Assembly (NCBI GenBank): GCA_007133875.1
Contig: SLLW01000211.1
Span: 1-10,368 of the forward strand
Origin: Balneolales bacterium
GTDB lineage: Bacteria > Bacteroidota > Rhodothermia > Balneolales > Natronogracilivirgulaceae
Direction: 5' to 3'
DNA length: 10,368 bases
Shown: piece after piece, positions 1-8,492 of the stretch
Position numbering within the stretch: position 1 is the stretch's first letter
Layout of the letters: each line of letters opens with the position of its first letter
Translations under genes and position numbers: made by a program
Notes under the pieces: generated by a model
Database searches by the model: none
What the model saw: the letters and a program-made list of their open reading frames with translations, nothing else
Told to the model about the DNA's origin: nothing

Positions 1-701
1 ACAGGTAAGGCATGCGCTGCCAGTACCCGGTTACCCGGATCGGATATCTCACCCGAAGTACTTCCGAATCCCTGAATTCCCGGTTCATCCTGCATAATCA
101 GGTTCTCATCACGATCGGTTGCCGCATGATCAAGGCGCGTCAGAACTGCCGCCGGTTCACGGGACCTTTCCACATCCCGGTTCAACCCGGCCTTTTCCGC
201 AGCCGAGTCACCGGCATCAGCCAGAGATGAACCCTCCGTAACTCGTAAAACACCGGTATTTTCGGGATAATTTGTATCGTTATTGGCTGATTCCGGAACA
301 GTGGAGCCCGGGGCCGGATCACGCACCCAGTCCGGAGGTTCCGGCTGTAGCCTCTCCACCAGTTCGCCATCCGTCAATGTATCATCCATCCGTTTTTCAT
401 TAGGCTGCTCATCATCCGGTAAAATCACCCCCGAAGCCCCCCGCTCCGATCCCACGGTATAGTCAGATGTGAGAAATCCTGTAAAATCATTAGAATGGGT
501 CCAGAGTAAACCCATGACAACGGTCGTCGCCACCAGCAGTGAAGCCGCGATACCGGAGACCGTCCGAAACATCAAAATCCTCTGTTTCCGAATCTGTTGC
601 TGACGGAACTGTTCCCACGAACCAGGGTGGTATGGCTCTTCATGATCCCGGAGCACATTTTTGATCCGGTCGATCGGGTCGTTGGACTGGAAATTATTCA
701 T
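1..701 (-). CDS. Putative membrane-anchored anti-sigma factor (Dma-like), 3' part cut by window edge
   Basis: The frame starts at ATG 701 and stays open for 233 codons to the left edge, so the C-terminus is not visible. The first ~42 residues are hydrophilic and probably cytosolic, with DPIDR at 8-12 and Y-H-P-x-S-W at 24-29. A single hydrophobic helix spans about 46-67. An acidic, Pro/Ser-rich segment of at least 160 residues follows and looks like a disordered periplasmic linker. The N-terminal plan (DPI-acidic-R, then YH and Trp, then one helix) matches the protein at 2647-4062, which ends in an outer-membrane barrel. I infer that this one does too, beyond the window. The start lies inside the stop region of the upstream sigma gene (8-base overlap, ATGAATAA), which suggests translational coupling and a cognate sigma/anti-sigma pair. 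No known anti-sigma zinc motif is visible, so the role rests on context and architecture. Confidence 0.8.
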   Translation of the reverse strand, partial: MNNFQSNDPIDRIKNVLRDHEEPYHPGSWEQFRQQQIRKQRILMFRTVSGIAASLLVATTVVMGLLWTHSNDFTGFLTSDYTVGSERGASGVILPDDEQPNEKRMDDTLTDGELVERLQPEPPDWVRDPAPGSTVPESANNDTNYPENTGVLRVTEGSSLADAGDSAAEKAGLNRDVERSREPAAVLTRLDHAATDRDENLIMQDEPGIQGFGSTSGEISDPGNRVLAAHALP

Positions 702-1407
702 AACTGTCGGGGAATAATGTTTTAAACATTTTTCGTAACTCTTCCTTTGCCCGTGACAGATAGGTACGGGATGAACTTTCGCTGATGTTCAACATTTTGG
801 CAACTTCCGAATGGCGATACCCATCGATTTCATAGAGGTTAAAGACAAATCGGTGCATCGGGGGTAACCGGTTGATCAAACGATAAATCTGCTCAACATT
901 CATGTCCGACTCCGCCTCGGAGAGGACATTTACGTAACCATCCTGAAACTCGGTGTTGTTTTTGTACTTTAGAATAGCGCGCATTCTGTCAATTGCGGTA
1001 TTGATAATGATTCTCCGGAGCCACGGCTTGAATGGTTTGGTTGACTCAAAACGATCCATCTTGTCAAACACTTTTATGAAACCGTCATTCACCACCTCAA
1101 GGGCATCATTTTTATCAGAGCAGTATTTCAGTGCAATGGCCATGGCATATCCATAAAATCTTTTATAGATCTGTTCCTGGCTATCGGGATCCTGATTTTT
1201 ACAGCCAAGAATCAGGTGTTCCGGTATAAATTCCACCATGCCATGATCCTTCTGCACACGTATACGATCGGATACACCCCTTTCATCCGAACCCCGCCGG
1301 TGATCTTCGTCGCTTAAACTGATCGTCGATTCAGCGGAATGACCGTTGCTCTTGCTTTTTAGTGACCGCAAATCGATCAATCTTTGTGCCGGTTCCGATT
1401 GCGACAT
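694..1407 (-). CDS. ECF-type RNA polymerase sigma factor (sigma-70 family)
   Basis: This is a transcription initiation factor of the extracytoplasmic-function class, with region 2 at about residues 68-145 and region 4 at about 173-226. Region 2 contains the run PFKPWLRRIIINTAID, identical to the sigma factor at 4073-4600. Region 4 has the helix-turn-helix EVAKMLNISESSSRTYLSRAKEEL (shown here as residues 201-224), expected to read the -35 element. The protein ends in DSYE inside the start of the next gene, its probable membrane-bound antagonist. With the ATG at 1407 it has 237 residues, including a hydrophilic N-terminal extension of 56 residues that the other sigma lacks. Starting at Met57 (ATG 1237-1239) would give 181 residues, nearer the usual ECF length, and that start has AGAAGGA 7 bases upstream. 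The sigma identity is firm; the start is not. Confidence 0.93.
   Translation of the reverse strand: MSQSEPAQRLIDLRSLKSKSNGHSAESTISLSDEDHRRGSDERGVSDRIRVQKDHGMVEFIPEHLILGCKNQDPDSQEQIYKRFYGYAMAIALKYCSDKNDALEVVNDGFIKVFDKMDRFESTKPFKPWLRRIIINTAIDRMRAILKYKNNTEFQDGYVNVLSEAESDMNVEQIYRLINRLPPMHRFVFNLYEIDGYRHSEVAKMLNISESSSRTYLSRAKEELRKMFKTLFPDSYE
1247..1253 (-). promoter_or_regulatory. Ribosome-binding-site-like AGAAGGA for an internal start of the sigma gene
   Basis: On the minus strand AGAAGGA lies 7 bases before the ATG at 1239-1237. No comparable motif precedes the ATG at 1407. It supports a 181-residue sigma factor, but members of Bacteroidota often translate without such a motif, so it does not settle the start. 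Confidence 0.35.
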
Positions 1408-1436
1408 GTTTTACCGATGTGATACATTTTTTAATG

Positions 1437-1464
1437 CAGACTTATTTATACTACTACGTACAAA
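1437..1464 (-). promoter_or_regulatory. Weak Bacteroidota-type promoter candidate for the sigma gene at 694-1407
   Basis: Minus-strand TTTG (1464-1461) is followed after 16 bases by TAAGTCTG (1444-1437), a 7-of-8 match to the Bacteroidota -7 element TAnnTTTG. The spacing is slightly short. Initiation near 1430 would leave a leader of about 20 bases before the ATG at 1407, which would favour the long form of the sigma factor. An AAAAGGAGGA purine run just upstream (1474-1465) has no useful start codon behind it. Confidence 0.25.
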
Positions 1465-1535
1465 TCCTCCTTTTAGCTACATGTTCACATTAATTTTTCA
1501 CACAGTACACTGGTTTACGGATTCTGCTTCTTCAT

Positions 1536-2495
1536 TTAATCGACACTTAACAGTTCCACTTCATAAATAAGCGGGGAATATGGCCGGGCTGACGGCTCAA
1601 ATTCTCCGGTTTCAACCAGTTCATCGCGAAGTTGTTGGGGAAGAATCTGGACACTCATTCCGAATGCCAACCGGGAAGGCATAATCAGAATTCCTTTTCC
1701 GCCTTCACGAATCAGTGGCAACCCGTTTTCGAGGCCGGCTACCAACTCTCCGCTATTCACATAAGTCAGAATCGGCTCCTCATCCTCCGTTGTTCGAAGT
1801 ACGGTACCGTCCAGATATTTCCTCGTGAAATGGAACTCCACCAGGCTATGGCTGACAGGACGGTCACCACTGCCTTCCTCGACCGTCACGTACTGGAGGC
1901 CGTTCGAATAGGCCTCTGCGTCCAGTTCATTATCTTCGATATACTGCTCAATTTCCGCCACTTCCATTTCATACATTTGATCTTCGGTCATCAGATCCAC
2001 CACTCCCACCTCAATAATAAAATGCGAATGGGATTCAAAAAGGTCGTCATGCCCGAAATTGCCATAAGCACGGTAGGAGGGAATATAAAAACGGAAAGTC
2101 TCTCCCAGCTTCATATTACCGATTTCGTAATTCAATCCGGGTGGATAGATGGCATTGAAGTTATGGCTGTAAAAATTCCGGAACCGCACAGGATTCAAAG
2201 TGTCGGAATGGGACTCGATTTCATATTCCCCTTCAAGGTGTGTCATTGTGTAAACAATCCCAACAACATGGTCTGCAAGTACCTGTCTGCCAGACTCATT
2301 TTCTTCCACCACTTCAATATAGACCCCACTTGACTGCCTTTCCGCCTCTCGCTGATGCTCGGACAGGTATGCTTCGATCAGTTCGTCCGCCTCCCGGACC
2401 TGCCGGTCAAAATCGGATTCTGAGTCATCGAGACAACCCTGCAATACCAGTGACAGGGAAAGAATGGAAAAAAGTATAAAATTTTTGATTTGCAT
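1536..2495 (-). CDS. Tandem FKBP-type peptidyl-prolyl isomerase lipoprotein
   Basis: Predicted periplasm-facing folding factor of 319 residues. The start is taken at ATG 2495-2493, because it gives a classic lipoprotein signal: Lys4, a hydrophobic stretch, then a lipobox ending L-Q-G-Cys21. The frame extends to a TTG at 2531, which would add 12 unhelpful residues. Two FKBP domains follow, at about 56-168 and 197-319, joined by an acidic helix-like linker. Domain 2 carries G-L-E-N-G (254-258), a REGGK turn and LAFG (276-279). Domain 1 carries IPSYRAYG (138-145). The family catalyses cis-trans isomerisation of X-Pro bonds. However, the usual F-D active-site pair after DGT is replaced (DGTVLRTT, 229-236), and the pocket Trp (GWE) is Leu, so activity may be weak and chaperone-like. 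It lies between two sigma/membrane-protein pairs on the same strand. The barrel proteins encoded there are conceivable clients, which is inference only. Confidence 0.88.
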   Translation of the reverse strand: MQIKNFILFSILSLSLVLQGCLDDSESDFDRQVREADELIEAYLSEHQREAERQSSGVYIEVVEENESGRQVLADHVVGIVYTMTHLEGEYEIESHSDTLNPVRFRNFYSHNFNAIYPPGLNYEIGNMKLGETFRFYIPSYRAYGNFGHDDLFESHSHFIIEVGVVDLMTEDQMYEMEVAEIEQYIEDNELDAEAYSNGLQYVTVEEGSGDRPVSHSLVEFHFTRKYLDGTVLRTTEDEEPILTYVNSGELVAGLENGLPLIREGGKGILIMPSRLAFGMSVQILPQQLRDELVETGEFEPSARPYSPLIYEVELLSVD

Positions 2496-2646
2496 CTGTT
2501 CTGATTTAAAATGATAGCGTTTACTTAGCAAATACGGGCAATTTTCCCGATATGCTACAAATCATGTTACGAAATCTTTTCGAGGGAATCCGGATGGGAT
2601 GGAGGTATCTGAACGGGCCTGCAATAAAGATCTAATATTATGTCAT

Positions 2647-4062
2647 TTACATCCGGTAATTGATTGACAGGAAACTGCCCATGGAAAAAAGCCTGACATT
2701 CGCCCATCCGACTTCATTCACCGGAACTCTCACAAATGGTTCGGCCCGCAGGCTCCAGTGGCGATCCAGATCCCGTTCATAACCGACGGAAAAACCTGCA
2801 TTGCTAAGCCAGTGACTTGTGCCGGTCTGCTCTTCCCAATACGAAACCTGATCCGGCTCCGGATAATTTTCATACCCGGAAAACCTGAATTCATACCTTT
2901 CATTGAGCATGAAATAGGAGGAGATGCCCGCGGTTGCAAAGATCCGTGACCGATCAAAATTCAAAACCTGGTATTTTAACGAGATGGGAATGTCCAGAAG
3001 GCGACATTCGCCGGTCATATCATTAAAGGGAATACCTTGTTCCAGCTCCGGAGGTGGTCCATACGCATCACCTCCAGCAGCATAGCGTACATTGGAATAG
3101 ACGATTCCGGTTGATATTGCCAGTCTGGCGGTGATGCTGTATTCAAGGGAAACTCCGATTTTGTAACCAGGGTCATAAAAATTGGATACCGATCCCACGG
3201 TACTGAAATCGGGTGACATCATAAGACCGACAGCGAAGCGTGAGGTGCCGGGATCTTCGAGGACTGCAAGGCCTTCTTCGGATATGGCCGCGAGAGAAAC
3301 CGTTGGCTCTGGTTCACCGGTTTTGTGCGCTGAAACGAGTGAGCTTATATCCGGTTGGCGAATATACGGATAGGCAGGATCCTGTCCCTCATCACCAAAC
3401 CGTTTTATTCCTGATATGGCACGGTCAGCTGGGTCCGGTATTTCCCGATACGTGATTTGCATAGCCCCCGTTTCTGTTTCATGGTCATCATCACCAACGA
3501 TCCCTCCCGGTAATCGTGGAATCTCCTCGGCTAACGGTGGGGGAGCTCTGTCCGCAATGACATCCCCCGGATCCTGTAATCCCTCAATAATCTCAGAATA
3601 GTGTTCCTCCAGCGAAGGGGGGATCATTTCATCCGGACGGATGCCATCCACGATATCGTTGGCGTCCGGATCGATGCCGGCTCCGGGTTCAATGCCGGGC
3701 TGAAAATCCTCCTCCGGGTCTGTCATCGGATCTGTACCCGGCGACACCTCGTCCGGTTCCGGATCAGACTGCGGGTCCAATTGCGGTGCGGAACCGGTAT
3801 CGGACATATCAGCGATCTGATCACGTAAATCATTGATGATCATTCGGTTCTCGAAAGTAAGATAACCCAGGAGTGAGATCAACAAGAGCGATGCCGCCGC
3901 AATCCAGCGTGCACGTTGCCTGTAAATCCGTTGTGCATCACGAACATCAAGTTTTTTTTCAAGCTTGAGCCAATCCTCTTCCCGGAACGGTATATGATAC
4001 GCTTCCGATTTCTCCTGGAACAACCGTTCAATGGGATCATGGTTATGTTTGTTATCTGCCAT
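2647..4062 (-). CDS. Dual-membrane protein: inner-membrane helix, long linker, outer-membrane barrel; putative anti-sigma (Dma-like)
   Basis: The protein has 471 residues. Residues 1-50 are charged and probably cytosolic, with DPIER at 9-13, YH at 22-23 and Trp31. One hydrophobic helix spans about 53-70. Residues 85-270 are rich in Asp, Glu and Pro, with many DP/PD steps between 96 and 138, and look disordered. From about 275 to the end, alternating hydrophobic strands form a PorT/OMP_b-brl_2-like barrel. Its marks are the phrase LLDIPISLKYQV (355-366), strands such as FAVGLMMSP, and a final strand SFLSINYRM. There is no cleavable signal peptide, so the helix should stay in the inner membrane while the barrel sits in the outer membrane. 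It starts 10 bases after the stop of the ECF sigma gene. From memory, Bacteroides thetaiotaomicron Dma proteins have this layout and restrain an ECF sigma partner. The anti-sigma role here is inferred from that and from gene order. Confidence 0.85.
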   Translation of the reverse strand: MADNKHNHDPIERLFQEKSEAYHIPFREEDWLKLEKKLDVRDAQRIYRQRARWIAAASLLLISLLGYLTFENRMIINDLRDQIADMSDTGSAPQLDPQSDPEPDEVSPGTDPMTDPEEDFQPGIEPGAGIDPDANDIVDGIRPDEMIPPSLEEHYSEIIEGLQDPGDVIADRAPPPLAEEIPRLPGGIVGDDDHETETGAMQITYREIPDPADRAISGIKRFGDEGQDPAYPYIRQPDISSLVSAHKTGEPEPTVSLAAISEEGLAVLEDPGTSRFAVGLMMSPDFSTVGSVSNFYDPGYKIGVSLEYSITARLAISTGIVYSNVRYAAGGDAYGPPPELEQGIPFNDMTGECRLLDIPISLKYQVLNFDRSRIFATAGISSYFMLNERYEFRFSGYENYPEPDQVSYWEEQTGTSHWLSNAGFSVGYERDLDRHWSLRAEPFVRVPVNEVGWANVRLFSMGSFLSINYRM

Positions 4063-4072
4063 ATATATCGGC

Positions 4073-4600
4073 CTACATCAGGTTTTTTTCCAAAATGACT
4101 CTCAGGTTTTTTTTTGCTTTTGAAAGGTTTGATTTCGATGTCCCAACGGAAATCCCGAGCTTTTCTGCAATCTCCTCGTGTGAAAACCCTTCAATTACAT
4201 GCAGGTTGAAAACGGCCCGGTAAGCAGGAGATAACTCTTGCATCATATCAATAATCTCTTCGTAGGAGATCCCGCTTAAAATCTTTTCGTCTTCTGCCAT
4301 GCTGTTCTCCGTTATTTCGTAATTGGACAACTCACGGACTTTTTTATTCCGGTGATAATGGTCAATGGCTGTATTGATGATAATCCTGCGAAGCCAGGGC
4401 TTGAAAGGGCGTTCGGAATCAAATTTCCGGATATTCTCAAACACCTTCATAAATGAATCATTTAATATCTCAACCCCCTGGTCTCTGGAATCCGCATATC
4501 TCAGAGTGATACTCATACCATAGGCATAGAACTTCTCGTAGAGCTCCTTCTGACTGTCACGCTGCCGTTGTTGGCACCCTTTGATAATTTTCGTCAGCAA
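4073..4600 (-). CDS. ECF-type RNA polymerase sigma factor (sigma-70 family)
   Basis: This is a compact ECF sigma factor of 175 residues. Region 2 is at about 14-84 and includes PFKPWLRRIIINTAID (65-80), shared exactly with the sigma factor at 694-1407. Region 4 is at about 112-167, with the helix-turn-helix SHEEIAEKLGISVGTSKSNL (140-159). It ends 10 bases before the dual-membrane protein gene, its likely regulator. The start is TTG (4600-4598), because an in-frame TAG lies two codons upstream (4606-4604) and no ATG is available before region 2. Against the other sigma the protein begins a few residues into the conserved start of region 2, so the N-terminus is unusually short. Its upstream gap is AT-rich with an inverted repeat at 4620-4636. 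The function is clear; the targets are not visible. Confidence 0.93.
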   Translation of the reverse strand: MLTKIIKGCQQRQRDSQKELYEKFYAYGMSITLRYADSRDQGVEILNDSFMKVFENIRKFDSERPFKPWLRRIIINTAIDHYHRNKKVRELSNYEITENSMAEDEKILSGISYEEIIDMMQELSPAYRAVFNLHVIEGFSHEEIAEKLGISVGTSKSNLSKAKKNLRVILEKNLM

Positions 4601-4636: not shown

Positions 4637-4728
4637 AGGTATTTATAGATAACCTGCTATAATATAATGTAAAATAGATTACCGGAAGCCCCCGATAATT
4701 TGAGTGATTACACGCAGCATAGGCAAAC

Positions 4729-5661
4729 CTATCGCCCAATGCCGAATACACGGTGAATATTAAAACCAAACCGGAAGTCGCCTTTCCAGAACCGGTCGCG
4801 ATTGTTAGCCATGATAAATTCTTCGTTGTGCCACTGAGAACTGGTGAAAAAAATCTGAAAGATGTGTCCGCCAGTGTCGATATTCAGTGCCAGAGCCATG
4901 GCATCATGTGTGTTGGCATTGCGATCTCCAAATACCGGCAGGTATTCGGCACTTAATGCGAGCCGGTCGGTAAGTTCATAATTGGTCACGATACCTAATC
5001 CGAACAACTGATCCGGATTATCCCCCACAGTCCGGTTGAAATGGGCGATCATCGGTGTCAGTTGCAGGCTGAAGCTGTTGAATTTTCTGGCAATCATCAC
5101 CGATGTGAAGTAACTGAGCCTTTCTGAGAAACGATACCCGGTATTTGGCATCGTATTGATACCCATTGAAGCTTTTACCGCCAACTCAACCGGTATGCTC
5201 CCGGTAGTAGTCTGTCTCAGAATATTGTACTTACCACCGATATCAACGACTTTATTGAAGGTCATTCTGCCAACTCCTGCTGAAAACCGGTCAGAAATGG
5301 CATAATCCAGCCTGATCCGGGTGTTGGCTCCATCGTCCAGGCCGTACAAATGCTCAATCCCGCGATCCACCAAACCAAAGGTGTGTAATACACTTGAATT
5401 AAGATTGCCCTCCGATAGGTTTCTGACCGTACTGATACCGACATTGGTCATTGCCCAGAAAACATTATCCACCGGTTCGTCGGTTTCGACCCGCTCCCGT
5501 GGAAGTTGTGCTACGGTCCGGTCCGGCATCACCAACGTAAGCACGATACCCAGCAGGAGGGCGGGCGCTAGTAACGATCGCATAAAACGGCCGGCTCCCG
5601 GTATTATAACCGGCTTTGGCATATGAGCCGGATCACATAACGTTTCGTAAACAGTTCTCAT
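4729..5661 (-). CDS. DUF5777-type outer-membrane beta-barrel protein
   Basis: Exported barrel protein of 310 residues. A hydrophobic export segment lies at about 29-45 and ends TVA-Q-L, a typical signal-peptidase I site, giving a mature start near Q52. The rest is alternating beta-strands with the family's recognisable core. That core runs from DEPVDNVFWAMTNVG (61-75), through SSVLHTFGLVDRGIEHLYG and DDGANTRIRLDYAISDRFSA, to GRMTFNKVVDIGGKYNIL. The N-region is long (28 residues). An internal ATG at 5583 would give a standard signal peptide, but the ATG at 5661 has GAGGAG 11 bases upstream and lies only 19 bases after the YceI stop, so I keep it. No enzymatic role is known to me for this family. 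It is commonly seen next to YceI and redox proteins in Bacteroidota, as here, which suggests an outer-membrane or periplasmic partner of that pathway. Confidence 0.87.
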   Translation of the reverse strand: MRTVYETLCDPAHMPKPVIIPGAGRFMRSLLAPALLLGIVLTLVMPDRTVAQLPRERVETDEPVDNVFWAMTNVGISTVRNLSEGNLNSSVLHTFGLVDRGIEHLYGLDDGANTRIRLDYAISDRFSAGVGRMTFNKVVDIGGKYNILRQTTTGSIPVELAVKASMGINTMPNTGYRFSERLSYFTSVMIARKFNSFSLQLTPMIAHFNRTVGDNPDQLFGLGIVTNYELTDRLALSAEYLPVFGDRNANTHDAMALALNIDTGGHIFQIFFTSSQWHNEEFIMANNRDRFWKGDFRFGFNIHRVFGIGR

Positions 5662-5680: not shown

Positions 5681-6265
5681 TTAGTTACCGCCAAGTGTTT
5701 CATCGCGGCTTCGTGGTTCGAGTTCGGTTTCAATACGAATTTCCATCTCTTCGTCGACCTCCACAAAGAGAATGCTCGGAGGTTCGAGTTCATAGTCTTT
5801 GATATTAAGTATCCATTCGGCTTCCAGTGTGATCTGATCACCTTGTTTCTGCAGGTAACCTGAAACTTCCAGATCACGGGTAATGCCGTGCATCGTAAAC
5901 TCACCAACAGCGGTTACACGCTGCTTTTCGTCAGAGTCATGGTCAAACGAAGAGGTAAGTTCACCGGTATATTCAGCGAACGGATGTTCATCCACATCAA
6001 GGGTGCGGAACATATCCCGGTCACGCCGGTCAATACCGGTTCGCAGTGTGTTCAGATCCAGATAGAAATCAATGACATTTTCATGGAAGTCGATCATTCC
6101 GGTGAGATTATTCGACTCCCCGGTAAATGAATGCAACGGCACGCTGGATTTGAACTCGGCATATCCCGATTGGGTCATGTAAACCACATCCTCCCGGTCT
6201 GTTTTCATTGATGATGCCGATATCAACAGAATTAAAAGTAAGAGGTTTGCTGATTTTGATATCAC
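5681..6265 (-). CDS. YceI-family exported lipid-binding-like protein
   Basis: The 194-residue protein has a short signal peptide (about 1-19) and one YceI domain (about 28-185). The typical features are present in order: the FKSSVPLHSFTGESNNLTG opening, a central I-D-F-Y-L-D-L strand, RD-RDMFRTLDVDEHPFAEY, and GEFTMHGITRDLEVSG. In the family this fold is a lipocalin-like beta-barrel that binds long isoprenoid or fatty chains in the periplasm. The ligand here is unknown. The start is GTG (6265-6263), with AGGGGGA three bases upstream; the first in-frame ATG would remove the signal peptide. The gene follows the copper protein by 75 bases with no terminator seen and precedes the DUF5777-type gene by 19 bases, so the three are probably one operon. 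Confidence 0.92.
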   Translation of the reverse strand: MISKSANLLLLILLISASSMKTDREDVVYMTQSGYAEFKSSVPLHSFTGESNNLTGMIDFHENVIDFYLDLNTLRTGIDRRDRDMFRTLDVDEHPFAEYTGELTSSFDHDSDEKQRVTAVGEFTMHGITRDLEVSGYLQKQGDQITLEAEWILNIKDYELEPPSILFVEVDEEMEIRIETELEPRSRDETLGGN

Positions 6266-6340: not shown

Positions 6341-6778
6341 TCACTCATCTTCGCTGATTACGGTGATGGTTCCGGTCATTCCTGCCTGCAGGTGGGGAAT
6401 GCAGTAGTAATCATAGGTGCCCGAATTCTCAAAAGTGAATTGATACTGCTCGCCGGGTGCCACATTTCCGCTGTCGAACTGGCCGTCATGTTCCCCACCG
6501 GAACCGCTGGTCACCGTGTGTGCTTCGTTGCTTTCATTTACCCAGGTAACCGTCGTGCCTTCCGTGACTTCCAAGTTTCCCGGCTGGAAAGAGTTTCCTG
6601 TCATTTCGACAACATTTGCCGCAGGCGGACCGGGTTCGTCATCATTGCCATTCGGATCCGTAACGGAGTCATCACAGCCAGCAAGTGCTATTGCAAGAAA
6701 AAGGGCGACAGGAATGACAATGGTATCCCGTGACAGTTTCGTTGTTGATTTTCGGATATCAGATCTTGATAAAAACAT
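6341..6778 (-). CDS. Cupredoxin (plastocyanin/azurin-like) lipoprotein, type-1 copper
   Basis: Small electron-transfer protein of 145 residues. A charged N-region and hydrophobic helix end in the lipobox L-A-G-Cys35, so it should be lipid-anchored and face the periplasm or outer surface. A short acidic/Pro spacer (36-52) precedes the cupredoxin fold (about 55-142). All four type-1 copper ligands are visible: His87 in AHTVTSG, then Cys126, His129 and Met134 in the pattern C-x2-H-x4-M. It would shuttle single electrons between envelope redox partners. Neither donor nor acceptor is in the window. It is the first gene of the minus-strand run, followed by YceI and the DUF5777-type barrel. The region upstream holds a perfect 12-base palindrome that may be its operator. 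Confidence 0.93.
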   Translation of the reverse strand: MFLSRSDIRKSTTKLSRDTIVIPVALFLAIALAGCDDSVTDPNGNDDEPGPPAANVVEMTGNSFQPGNLEVTEGTTVTWVNESNEAHTVTSGSGGEHDGQFDSGNVAPGEQYQFTFENSGTYDYYCIPHLQAGMTGTITVISEDE

Positions 6779-6833: not shown

Positions 6834-6961
6834 TTTGTGTTCTGTTAAACCATACCTTGTATTCGGGAGCAGGGTTGCTTTCAATCCGCAACTGCCCTTT
6901 CCATGGGTGCGGTGCGGGTACATCCCCGGATGACACCTGTCGCGTATTCCCGGATATGAAC

Positions 6962-7043: not shown

Positions 7044-8492
7044 ATGATGATTATGTACTTACGGATTTCTGCCGTTGCCTTCCCGGTCCTTCTTTTATTC
7101 ACATTATTCACTTCCGGGTACTCTTTTGCAGAAACCAACAACAAAAGCAGTTCTGCCGGGCATACGGAGTCCCGAACCCATTCAAACAGCCTTGACAGCG
7201 AATACGGTAACACTGCCGGCAAGATCATTGAGGCTGCAACCGGAACACACCGGGCCTATGACCGTCTTGCTTATTTCACCGACTATTTCCCACACCGCCT
7301 CAGCGGATCCGAAATGCTTGAAAATGCCATCGCCTGGGCGGAAAAAGAGTTGGCCAATGACGGTATTCCCGTGGTGCGCAAGCAGGAAGTCAAAGTACCC
7401 CATTGGGTACGAGGTAATGAGTTCGTAAAAATTATAGCGCCCTACGAAAAAGAGCTGCCAATGCTTGGACTCGGTAGCAGTGTCAATACCGGAGGGGAAG
7501 AGCTGACGGCAAAAACAGTCGTCGTGGAAAGTTTTGACGAACTTGAGGATCGCAGTGACGAAATTTCCGGTAGTATCGTGGTCTACAACCAGCCGTTTGT
7601 TGATTATGGCCAATCCGTTCAATACCGTGTTTTTGGAGCGGACCGGGCTGCAGAATATGGGGCTGTTGGTGTATTGCTTCGCGCAGTTTCACCAAACGCA
7701 ATGGGACATCCGCACACCGGTAACATGCGCTATTCCGATGATGTCCCCCGGATTCCTGCCGCTGCCATTTCCGCCGAGGATGCCATGTTGCTGCACCGGT
7801 TTGATCAACGCGGTGATCCAGCCACCGTCACTTTGTACATGGAAGCGGAATTGAAAGAAGAACCGGCACTTTCACACAATGTGATTGCCGAAATTCCGGG
7901 ACGGGAACAGCCCGATGAGATCGTAGTCATCGGCGGGCATATCGACTCCTGGGATGTAGGCCACGGAGCCATGGATGATGGCGGCGGAGTCATCGTAGCA
8001 TGGGAGGCATTGCGGATAATTCATGAGTTGGGATTGCAGCCCAAACGAACCATCCGCCTGGTGTTATGGACCAATGAGGAGAATGGGGTGATGGGGGGAC
8101 GAGCATACCGCGACAAAGTAATTGAAAAAGGGGAGCTGGAAAACCATCAGCTTGCGCTTGAAGTAGACTTTGGGGTATTTAAACCGATCGGTTTTGGTTT
8201 TGAGGGGTCAGAAGAAGCACTTCGGATGCTTGCTCCCATAGCCGATCTGATGTCACCACTACGTGACATGCATATGAGGGAAGGTTCCTATGGGACCGTA
8301 GATATCGGGCCGCTTCACCGGGAAGGTGTTCCGATCATGGGACTCGATGTTGAAACCGAAAAATACTTCTGGTACCATCATTCGGCCAAGGACACCATTG
8401 ACAAACTCGATGCCGGTGAAGTTGCCGAATGTGTTGCAGCAGTTGCTGTAATGGCCTTTGTTGCAGCTGATATGCCTGAGCGGCTCCCTTAA
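7044..8492 (+). CDS. Exported M28-family zinc metallopeptidase, carboxypeptidase Q-like
   Basis: The 482-residue protein has an N-terminal signal peptide (about 1-29, ending SFA-ET). A PA-like insert lies at about 130-270 and the M28 catalytic domain at about 275-478. The two-zinc site is visible: His299 in GGHIDSWD, bridging Asp311 in GAMDDGGG, catalytic Glu345 and ligand Glu346 in TNEENG, Asp375 in LEVDFG, and His445/446 in the closing YHHSAKDT. The phrase order matches the carboxypeptidase Q (PGCP) branch, whose members cleave small peptides, often dipeptides. The expected location is periplasm or outside, with a role in peptide nutrient use. It is divergent from the cupredoxin gene with its own promoter candidate. 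Its stop overlaps the stop of the opposing kinase gene by four bases. The family call is firm; the substrate is not known. Confidence 0.94.
   Translation: MMIMYLRISAVAFPVLLLFTLFTSGYSFAETNNKSSSAGHTESRTHSNSLDSEYGNTAGKIIEAATGTHRAYDRLAYFTDYFPHRLSGSEMLENAIAWAEKELANDGIPVVRKQEVKVPHWVRGNEFVKIIAPYEKELPMLGLGSSVNTGGEELTAKTVVVESFDELEDRSDEISGSIVVYNQPFVDYGQSVQYRVFGADRAAEYGAVGVLLRAVSPNAMGHPHTGNMRYSDDVPRIPAAAISAEDAMLLHRFDQRGDPATVTLYMEAELKEEPALSHNVIAEIPGREQPDEIVVIGGHIDSWDVGHGAMDDGGGVIVAWEALRIIHELGLQPKRTIRLVLWTNEENGVMGGRAYRDKVIEKGELENHQLALEVDFGVFKPIGFGFEGSEEALRMLAPIADLMSPLRDMHMREGSYGTVDIGPLHREGVPIMGLDVETEKYFWYHHSAKDTIDKLDAGEVAECVAAVAVMAFVAADMPERLP

Follow-up and report, generated by a model that had tools for sequence, protein, structure and literature searches.

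Two ECF sigma factor cassettes with Dma-type membrane proteins on one Balneolales contig, and a candidate promoter for an exported redox module

Two similar regulatory cassettes standing in series on one strand may be the halves of a duplicated system, or two switches that became neighbours. Contig SLLW01000211.1 of a Balneolales bacterium (assembly GCA_007133875.1) raises this question in a stretch of 10,368 bp, referred to here as the window; it is a complete contig (C260) of a genome that is 76% complete. In the order of transcription, the minus strand carries genes for a cupredoxin lipoprotein, a YceI-like protein, a DUF5777 beta-barrel protein, an extracytoplasmic function (ECF) sigma factor (SigA), a putative anti-sigma factor of the dual membrane-spanning anti-sigma (Dma) type (DmaA), an FKBP lipoprotein, a second ECF sigma factor (SigB), and the start of a second Dma-type protein (DmaB). 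Both sigma genes are followed by a single-helix membrane protein, as proposed in an original prediction that read the two cassettes as a duplicated envelope-sensing system flanking the FKBP lipoprotein, with possible cross-talk. That prediction ended at position 4600, while the co-directional run extends up to 6778 and includes the cupredoxin, YceI, and DUF5777 genes. It is likely that the window holds two independent ECF sigma/Dma-type switches, neighbours by chance, and that SigA autoregulates the exported redox module encoded with it.

Two sigma factors of separate lineages

SigA (175 aa; 4073..4600, minus strand) comprises sigma-70 regions 2 and 4, and SigB is likely 181 aa long (694..1239, minus strand). 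The SigB open reading frame itself spans 1407-694, yet the first 56 residues fail to align with relatives, and the true start is therefore probably M57 at 1239. A Dma gene is expected to adjoin a sigma gene of the ECF21 subgroup; for SigA and SigB the best NCBIfam subfamily is TIGR02985, below its cut-off in each case. The stretch of 16 residues that first suggested a duplication, PFKPWLRRIIINTAID, is indeed exact in SigA and SigB. Among 80 sigma proteins, however, three carry the identical stretch (SigA, SigB, and one relative), five match at 15/16, and six at 14/16. Since 14/80 family members match at ≥14 positions, the 16-mer reads as a family signature in these alignments and is no sign of recent duplication; outside it, SigA and SigB are 41% identical over 165 residues. 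In a tree of the 80 sequences, SigA falls in a clade of 33 (clade A; support 100/98) and SigB in a clade of six (clade B; support 99/90), which is nested in a group of 15 Balneolales sigmas. Because the branch of SigB is long, the topology with SigA and SigB as sisters was tested explicitly, and it was rejected by the approximately unbiased (AU) test (p-AU 0.0003).

The cassettes are also distributed differently. Across 128 Balneolales genomes, a clade-A DmaA is found in 37 (E at or below 2.3e-89; 41 match at all), and DmaB-like barrels match in 11, six strong matches representing clade B. Three genomes have both cassettes, and only in the window are they together on one contig: in G057 they lie on C35 and C106, and in G091 on C26 and C504, two short contigs of 14.8 and 4.8 kb. 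Thus, single sigma-Dma pairs are conserved in relatives, while the tandem order is kept in none, and the side-by-side layout looks like an accident of the window genome.

The FKBP lipoprotein (1536..2495, minus strand) has an N-terminal half similar to BamJ and a C-terminal half similar to GldI, with each match below cut-off; a literature search on BamJ with Flavobacterium turned up no paper. At a threshold of E ≤ 1e-15, 4/128 genomes encode an orthologue, and each of these is one of the six with cassette B. The gene stands immediately downstream of dmaB in G102 and G069 and upstream of sigB in the window; in G057 it is not linked to the cassette. As every FKBP genome carries cassette B, with the gene adjoining in three, the FKBP lipoprotein was assigned to this cassette. 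The motif TGTAGC occurs in 8/8 upstream regions of cassette-B genes or FKBP (in the window at 2554-2559 before FKBP and at 1476-1481 before sigB, minus strand; also in L164, L184, L185, and L060), and in 200 shuffled sets the best 6-mer hit seven regions once. No second block at fixed spacing was seen beside TGTAGC in these eight regions, and the motif is a possible part of a SigB promoter. In G057, G091, and G084, the place directly upstream of sigB, which FKBP occupies in the window, is taken by a gene for a probable lipoprotein of 173-178 aa (L060 9793-10314; L165 3436-3972; L167 5413-5940), and the G057 copy matches no Pfam family.

Taken together, the same-strand adjacency, the common architecture, and the exact 16-mer are what a recent tandem duplication would leave behind, one envelope-sensing system with cross-talk and FKBP as its common middle component. 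Cross-talk is possible in principle, as PMC13088901 describes that dma1 and dma2 mutants of Bacteroides thetaiotaomicron both induce the dma3 locus. Still, such a duplication is very improbable given the separate supported clades, the rejected sisterhood, the absence of the tandem in 2/2 other two-cassette genomes, and an FKBP gene that follows cassette B. Furthermore, the upstream element typical of cassette A (see below) is absent before FKBP and sigB, where TGTAGC is found instead, and promoter-level cross-talk is for this reason not supported.

Architecture of the membrane proteins

DmaA (471 aa; 2647..4062, minus strand) was characterised by domain scan, alignment, structure model, and fold search. 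Residues 1-50 (3913..4062) form a predicted cytoplasmic, sigma-binding segment, in which the columns E-E-D-W..LE..L are invariant in 11/11 close relatives. The model places helices at residues 10-21 and 28-89, the second of which holds the transmembrane (TM) segment, and in most of the scanned relatives a hydropathy peak at about residues 50-73 of the protein next to the sigma factor marks a single TM helix. Residues 90-272 (3247..3795) are a disordered acidic tether with a predicted local distance difference test (pLDDT) score below 50 and 44 D/E, 9 K/R, and 27 P among 183 residues. An outer-membrane barrel had been proposed for the C-terminus; the model supports one of OmpA-like type (residues 275-471; 2650..3240), with nine strands assigned by DSSP between residues 275 and 470. 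Mean pLDDT of the model is 62, and the barrel blocks reach 67-95. The nearest solved folds are OmpA-type barrels, the OmpA-domain entries giving a TM-score of 0.60-0.67 by target length at a root-mean-square deviation of 6.0-9.5, and a sequence search of the PDB with DmaA gave no match up to E 0.1.

DmaB (1..701, minus strand) is truncated at the first base of the window. Another contig of the same genome, C356, overlaps window positions 1-304 in opposite orientation (304 bp, 93.4% identical) and then runs into a predicted barrel. A barrel is thus the probable end of both cassettes, and the simplest explanation of the break is a strain-variant fork in the assembly. A model of the DmaB orthologue from G102 shows the order of elements seen in DmaA, at low confidence (mean pLDDT 52). 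The N-terminal plan common to DmaA and DmaB is real and recurs in aligned relatives, and each Dma-type gene adjoins an ECF sigma gene. On sequence and model, DmaA and DmaB are both built to the Dma plan, and this part of the original prediction holds.

The plan could also be imagined to serve no regulatory purpose, DmaA having a structural role in the outer membrane and being co-expressed with SigA without inhibiting it, with SigA activity set by expression alone. Consistent with this, a Pfam scan of ten window proteins detected no anti-sigma domain in DmaA, and binding of the sigma factor is something we infer from the conserved N-terminus. Against it stand the conserved cytoplasmic N-terminus and TM helix in front of the barrel, the invariant E-E-D-W, and a sigma gene directly before the Dma gene in 25/26 distant loci. 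The plan is also that of Dma1 and Dma2, which PMC13088901 reports as sigma controllers in Bacteroides. A purely structural DmaA is therefore considered unlikely.

One known class of anti-sigma factors could be set aside. Class I zinc-binding anti-sigma (ZAS) factors display an H-x3-C-x2-C motif in their N-terminal domain, and as neither DmaA nor DmaB has a cysteine before the TM helix, this class was ruled out. In G095 (L146 8824-10614), SigA and DmaA form one open frame of 596 aa with no stop between them. A Dma part identical to that of G095 is recorded as a separate protein of 420 residues, which makes the fusion doubtful; a strain variant or a misassembly could account for it, and it was not used as evidence. 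A protein search with at least 7997 candidates scored gave no second sigma-barrel fusion among the 34 matches listed.

The cassette A operon and its candidate promoter

In the window, the redox module consists of a plastocyanin-like cupredoxin lipoprotein (6341..6778; PF00127, 6e-16) with the lipobox LAGC and a His, Cys, His, Met ligand pattern, a YceI-like protein (5681..6265; PF04264, 4e-13), and a DUF5777 beta-barrel protein (4729..5661; PF19089, 3e-74), all encoded on the minus strand. Matches of the cupredoxin to plastocyanin-type models are all below cut-off. In 34/37 clade-A genomes, sigA-dmaA lies on the same strand beside at least one gene for a redox-type lipoprotein, YceI, or DUF5777 (G008, with dmaA on another contig, was counted as linked through sigA alone). 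Twenty genomes have the order S-M-C-Y-D (sigma, membrane protein, redox slot, YceI, DUF5777) and seven, the window included, C-Y-D-S-M; the remainder are partial or cut. The three unlinked genomes (G012, G013, and G017) have no DUF5777 match. With matches in 103/128 genomes, DUF5777 is commoner than the switch, and the sigma-Dma pair hence looks like a regulatory addition to an older module; a literature search on DUF5777 turned up no paper mentioning it. Depending on the genome, the redox slot, after dmaA or before YceI, is occupied by a cupredoxin or by a PSCyt1-type cytochrome-like lipoprotein, with both present in G105. By a regular-expression test, some slot proteins of the PSCyt1 group are without a plain CxxCH, so heme binding is not certain for all of them.

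Upstream of the first gene of the operon, sigA or cupredoxin alike, lies an element of the form GCAACC-16 nt-NGTA(T/C) (consensus AGGCAACCCTTT...TGTATaGttaAaTAGA). It is present in 29/33 first-gene upstream regions, at a chance of 0.0012 per region as estimated from shuffles, and the spacer is 16 nt in 32/33 aligned sites. The 33 regions are those of 32 relatives and the window, leaving out G008, G013, and G017, in which the sigma start is cut or apart, and the fused G095, whose own site was counted in the strict-pattern scan described below. As for the four misses, the element lies about 340 bp before YceI in G004, only 97 bp of upstream sequence is available in G012, the operon start is off the contig in G089 with the element before sigA instead, and G104 has a degenerate copy with an intact one before an upstream PF03640 gene. 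In the window, the predicted SigA promoter (6852..6878, minus strand; GCAACC, 16 nt, GGTAT) lies 73 bp before the cupredoxin ATG and is the sole GCAACC-N15..17-NGTA site on either strand. A second copy directly precedes sigA in 5/9 loci with sigA last, the window being among the four without. Sigma-70 promoters were discounted, 10 having been found against 11.8 expected.

Several lines of evidence point to SigA as the factor that would recognise this element. Scanned over the 128 genomes, a strict pattern hit 41 sites in the 37 clade-A genomes, where its reversed control hit 3; in the 91 genomes without clade A the two numbers were 14 and 8 (totals summed by hand from tabulated counts). ECF promoters typically have two blocks at a nearly constant distance and an AAC core, which fits the element. 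It could be argued that GCAACC-N16-TGTAT is instead the site of another regulator, or of another sigma factor, that controls the redox module with SigA as one target, as recognition by SigA is a prediction and genomes without clade A hold some sites. Yet this is unlikely: the sites are concentrated in clade-A genomes, and no element was found, even under a looser pattern, at 12 DUF5777 loci picked from outside the sigA cassette. In addition, the element stands before the related sigma gene in 9/25 distant loci. We thus favour a candidate SigA-recognised promoter.

The element also marks genes elsewhere in clade-A genomes. Of 15 remote strict sites, 13 were read (leaving out G050:C311 and G106:C190), and 12/13 are followed at a distance of 44-155 bp by a gene encoding an exported protein, namely a cupredoxin (PF00127) in nine cases and a CHRD protein (PF07452) in three, all over the Pfam cut-off; the remaining site, G054:C37, has no gene start within 3 kb. 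In G104 and G105, the element precedes a PF03640 lipoprotein gene just upstream of sigA. In a wider survey, the DmaA profile matches 44/395 genomes drawn from the phylum, 25 of which lie beyond Balneolales, and 26 loci from 23 of these were read (leaving out G216, G359, and weaker extra matches). In addition to the sigma-Dma adjacency given above, 16/26 keep at least one module gene (13 with YceI and DUF5777 downstream of the Dma gene, two with YceI alone, one with a cytochrome-like gene alone). The form GCAACC-N15..17-(C/T)GTA(C/T) is found in 9/25 distant sigma upstream regions (chance 0.0005), a set without L246, where no sigma was found, and without the named loci L105-L111; including those seven, the count is 10/32. 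One of them, in Algoriphagus terrigena (L106), combines genes for sigma, Dma, YceI, and DUF5777 with one for the redox slot, and the element lies upstream of the sigma gene.

A broader proposal is that DmaA, spanning both membranes as one protein, senses the state of the outer-membrane redox module and feeds back to the operon of that module, that cupredoxin and cytochrome-like carriers share one slot, and that the circuit is common to Balneolota and part of Bacteroidota. This remains a tentative suggestion. It is weakened, together with the reading of two independent switches, by the distant loci with YceI, where the element is present in 4/15 and absent in 11/15. Several other observations count against the latter reading. 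In all six Mucilaginibacter loci the element is missing upstream of the sigma gene, and outside the order it tracks the sigma gene more closely than the module. All nine cupredoxin genes with a remote site belong to just two genera, and as the relatives represent few genera, these events are not independent. Within clade A, 12/37 genomes, the window's included, have no strict site. The copy in the window departs from the consensus (AAGCAACC, GGTAT), and no element directly precedes sigA there, in a gap of 129 bp that holds a terminator-like stem, so that the window SigA would need read-through or another promoter. On the protein side, the Pfam barrel score of DmaA is 26.8 against a cut-off of 27, that of C356 is also under the cut-off, the evidence for a barrel in DmaB comes from a variant contig that overlaps the window and from an orthologue model of low confidence, and contact between the sigma factors and the Dma proteins is a prediction.

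Other features of the window were noted. The stem between DUF5777 and sigA comprises nine pairs (4678-4699, minus strand). On the far side of the cupredoxin operon are a divergent M28 peptidase gene (7044-8492, plus strand) and a truncated hybrid histidine kinase gene. G004 (L072) has an M28 peptidase gene 81% identical to that of the window in the same divergent place; there the promoter element is kept and no cupredoxin gene was detected.

A working model and comparison with known systems

As a working model of two independent switches, the cytoplasmic N-terminal segment of a Dma protein would hold its cognate sigma factor at the inner membrane, while the TM helix and the disordered acidic tether link this segment to the OmpA-like barrel in the outer membrane. 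A change at the barrel or tether could free the sigma factor. Freed SigA would recognise GCAACC-N16-(T/C)GTA(T/C) before its own operon and raise SigA, DmaA, the cupredoxin or PSCyt1-type lipoprotein, YceI, and the DUF5777 barrel, as well as remote cupredoxin or CHRD proteins in several relatives; this direction of control is one we infer. The conserved payload hints that switch A responds to the redox or copper state of the envelope. Switch B (SigB-DmaB) is, by sequence, a separate lineage tied to the FKBP lipoprotein and probably reports outer-membrane protein folding, as the FKBP lipoprotein resembles outer-membrane protein assembly and gliding factors. The promoter element, the short target list, and the phylum-wide neighbourhood make the passage of a signal from outer membrane to sigma factor within one Dma polypeptide testable outside gut Bacteroides, in cultured relatives such as Fodinibius halophilus, and DUF5777 gains a first functional context.

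The two switches share features with several characterised systems. In RpoE/RseA, an ECF sigma factor is paired with a single-pass membrane anti-sigma factor that has a periplasmic sensor domain. The cassettes resemble this plan, and cassette B is linked to a folding factor; they differ in that no RseA or RseB domain was found in the scan of window proteins and a barrel replaces the periplasmic sensor domain. In FecI/FecR/FecA signalling, an outer-membrane barrel informs an inner-membrane anti-sigma factor that holds an ECF sigma factor. The working principle, from barrel to anti-sigma to ECF sigma, is alike, whereas in DmaA the barrel and the anti-sigma segment are one polypeptide. Signalling of the FecR type itself was discarded, as neither a FecR domain nor a TonB-dependent receptor turned up when the ten window proteins were scanned with Pfam.

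The closest parallel is found in Bacteroides, for which the available portion of PMC13088901 describes the four-part Dma protein plan, the adjacency of sigma and Dma genes, and members involved in vesicle formation and the expression of polysaccharide utilization loci. DmaA and DmaB, each with an adjoining sigma gene, share this plan, and the single frame of SigA and DmaA in G095 resembles the sigma-Dma fusion described there for Dma3 of B. thetaiotaomicron. Inducing signals and promoters of the Bacteroides Dma proteins are not given in that portion, and no further search was aimed at published promoters of Dma-linked sigma factors. While the kind of switch is thus already known, the system described here differs in its lineage, Balneolales of the NCBI phylum Balneolota, and in the ties of cassette A to a redox lipoprotein-YceI-DUF5777 module and a candidate promoter. 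What is added is the Balneolales members, that promoter, predicted exported targets of redox type, and a corrected account of the tandem.

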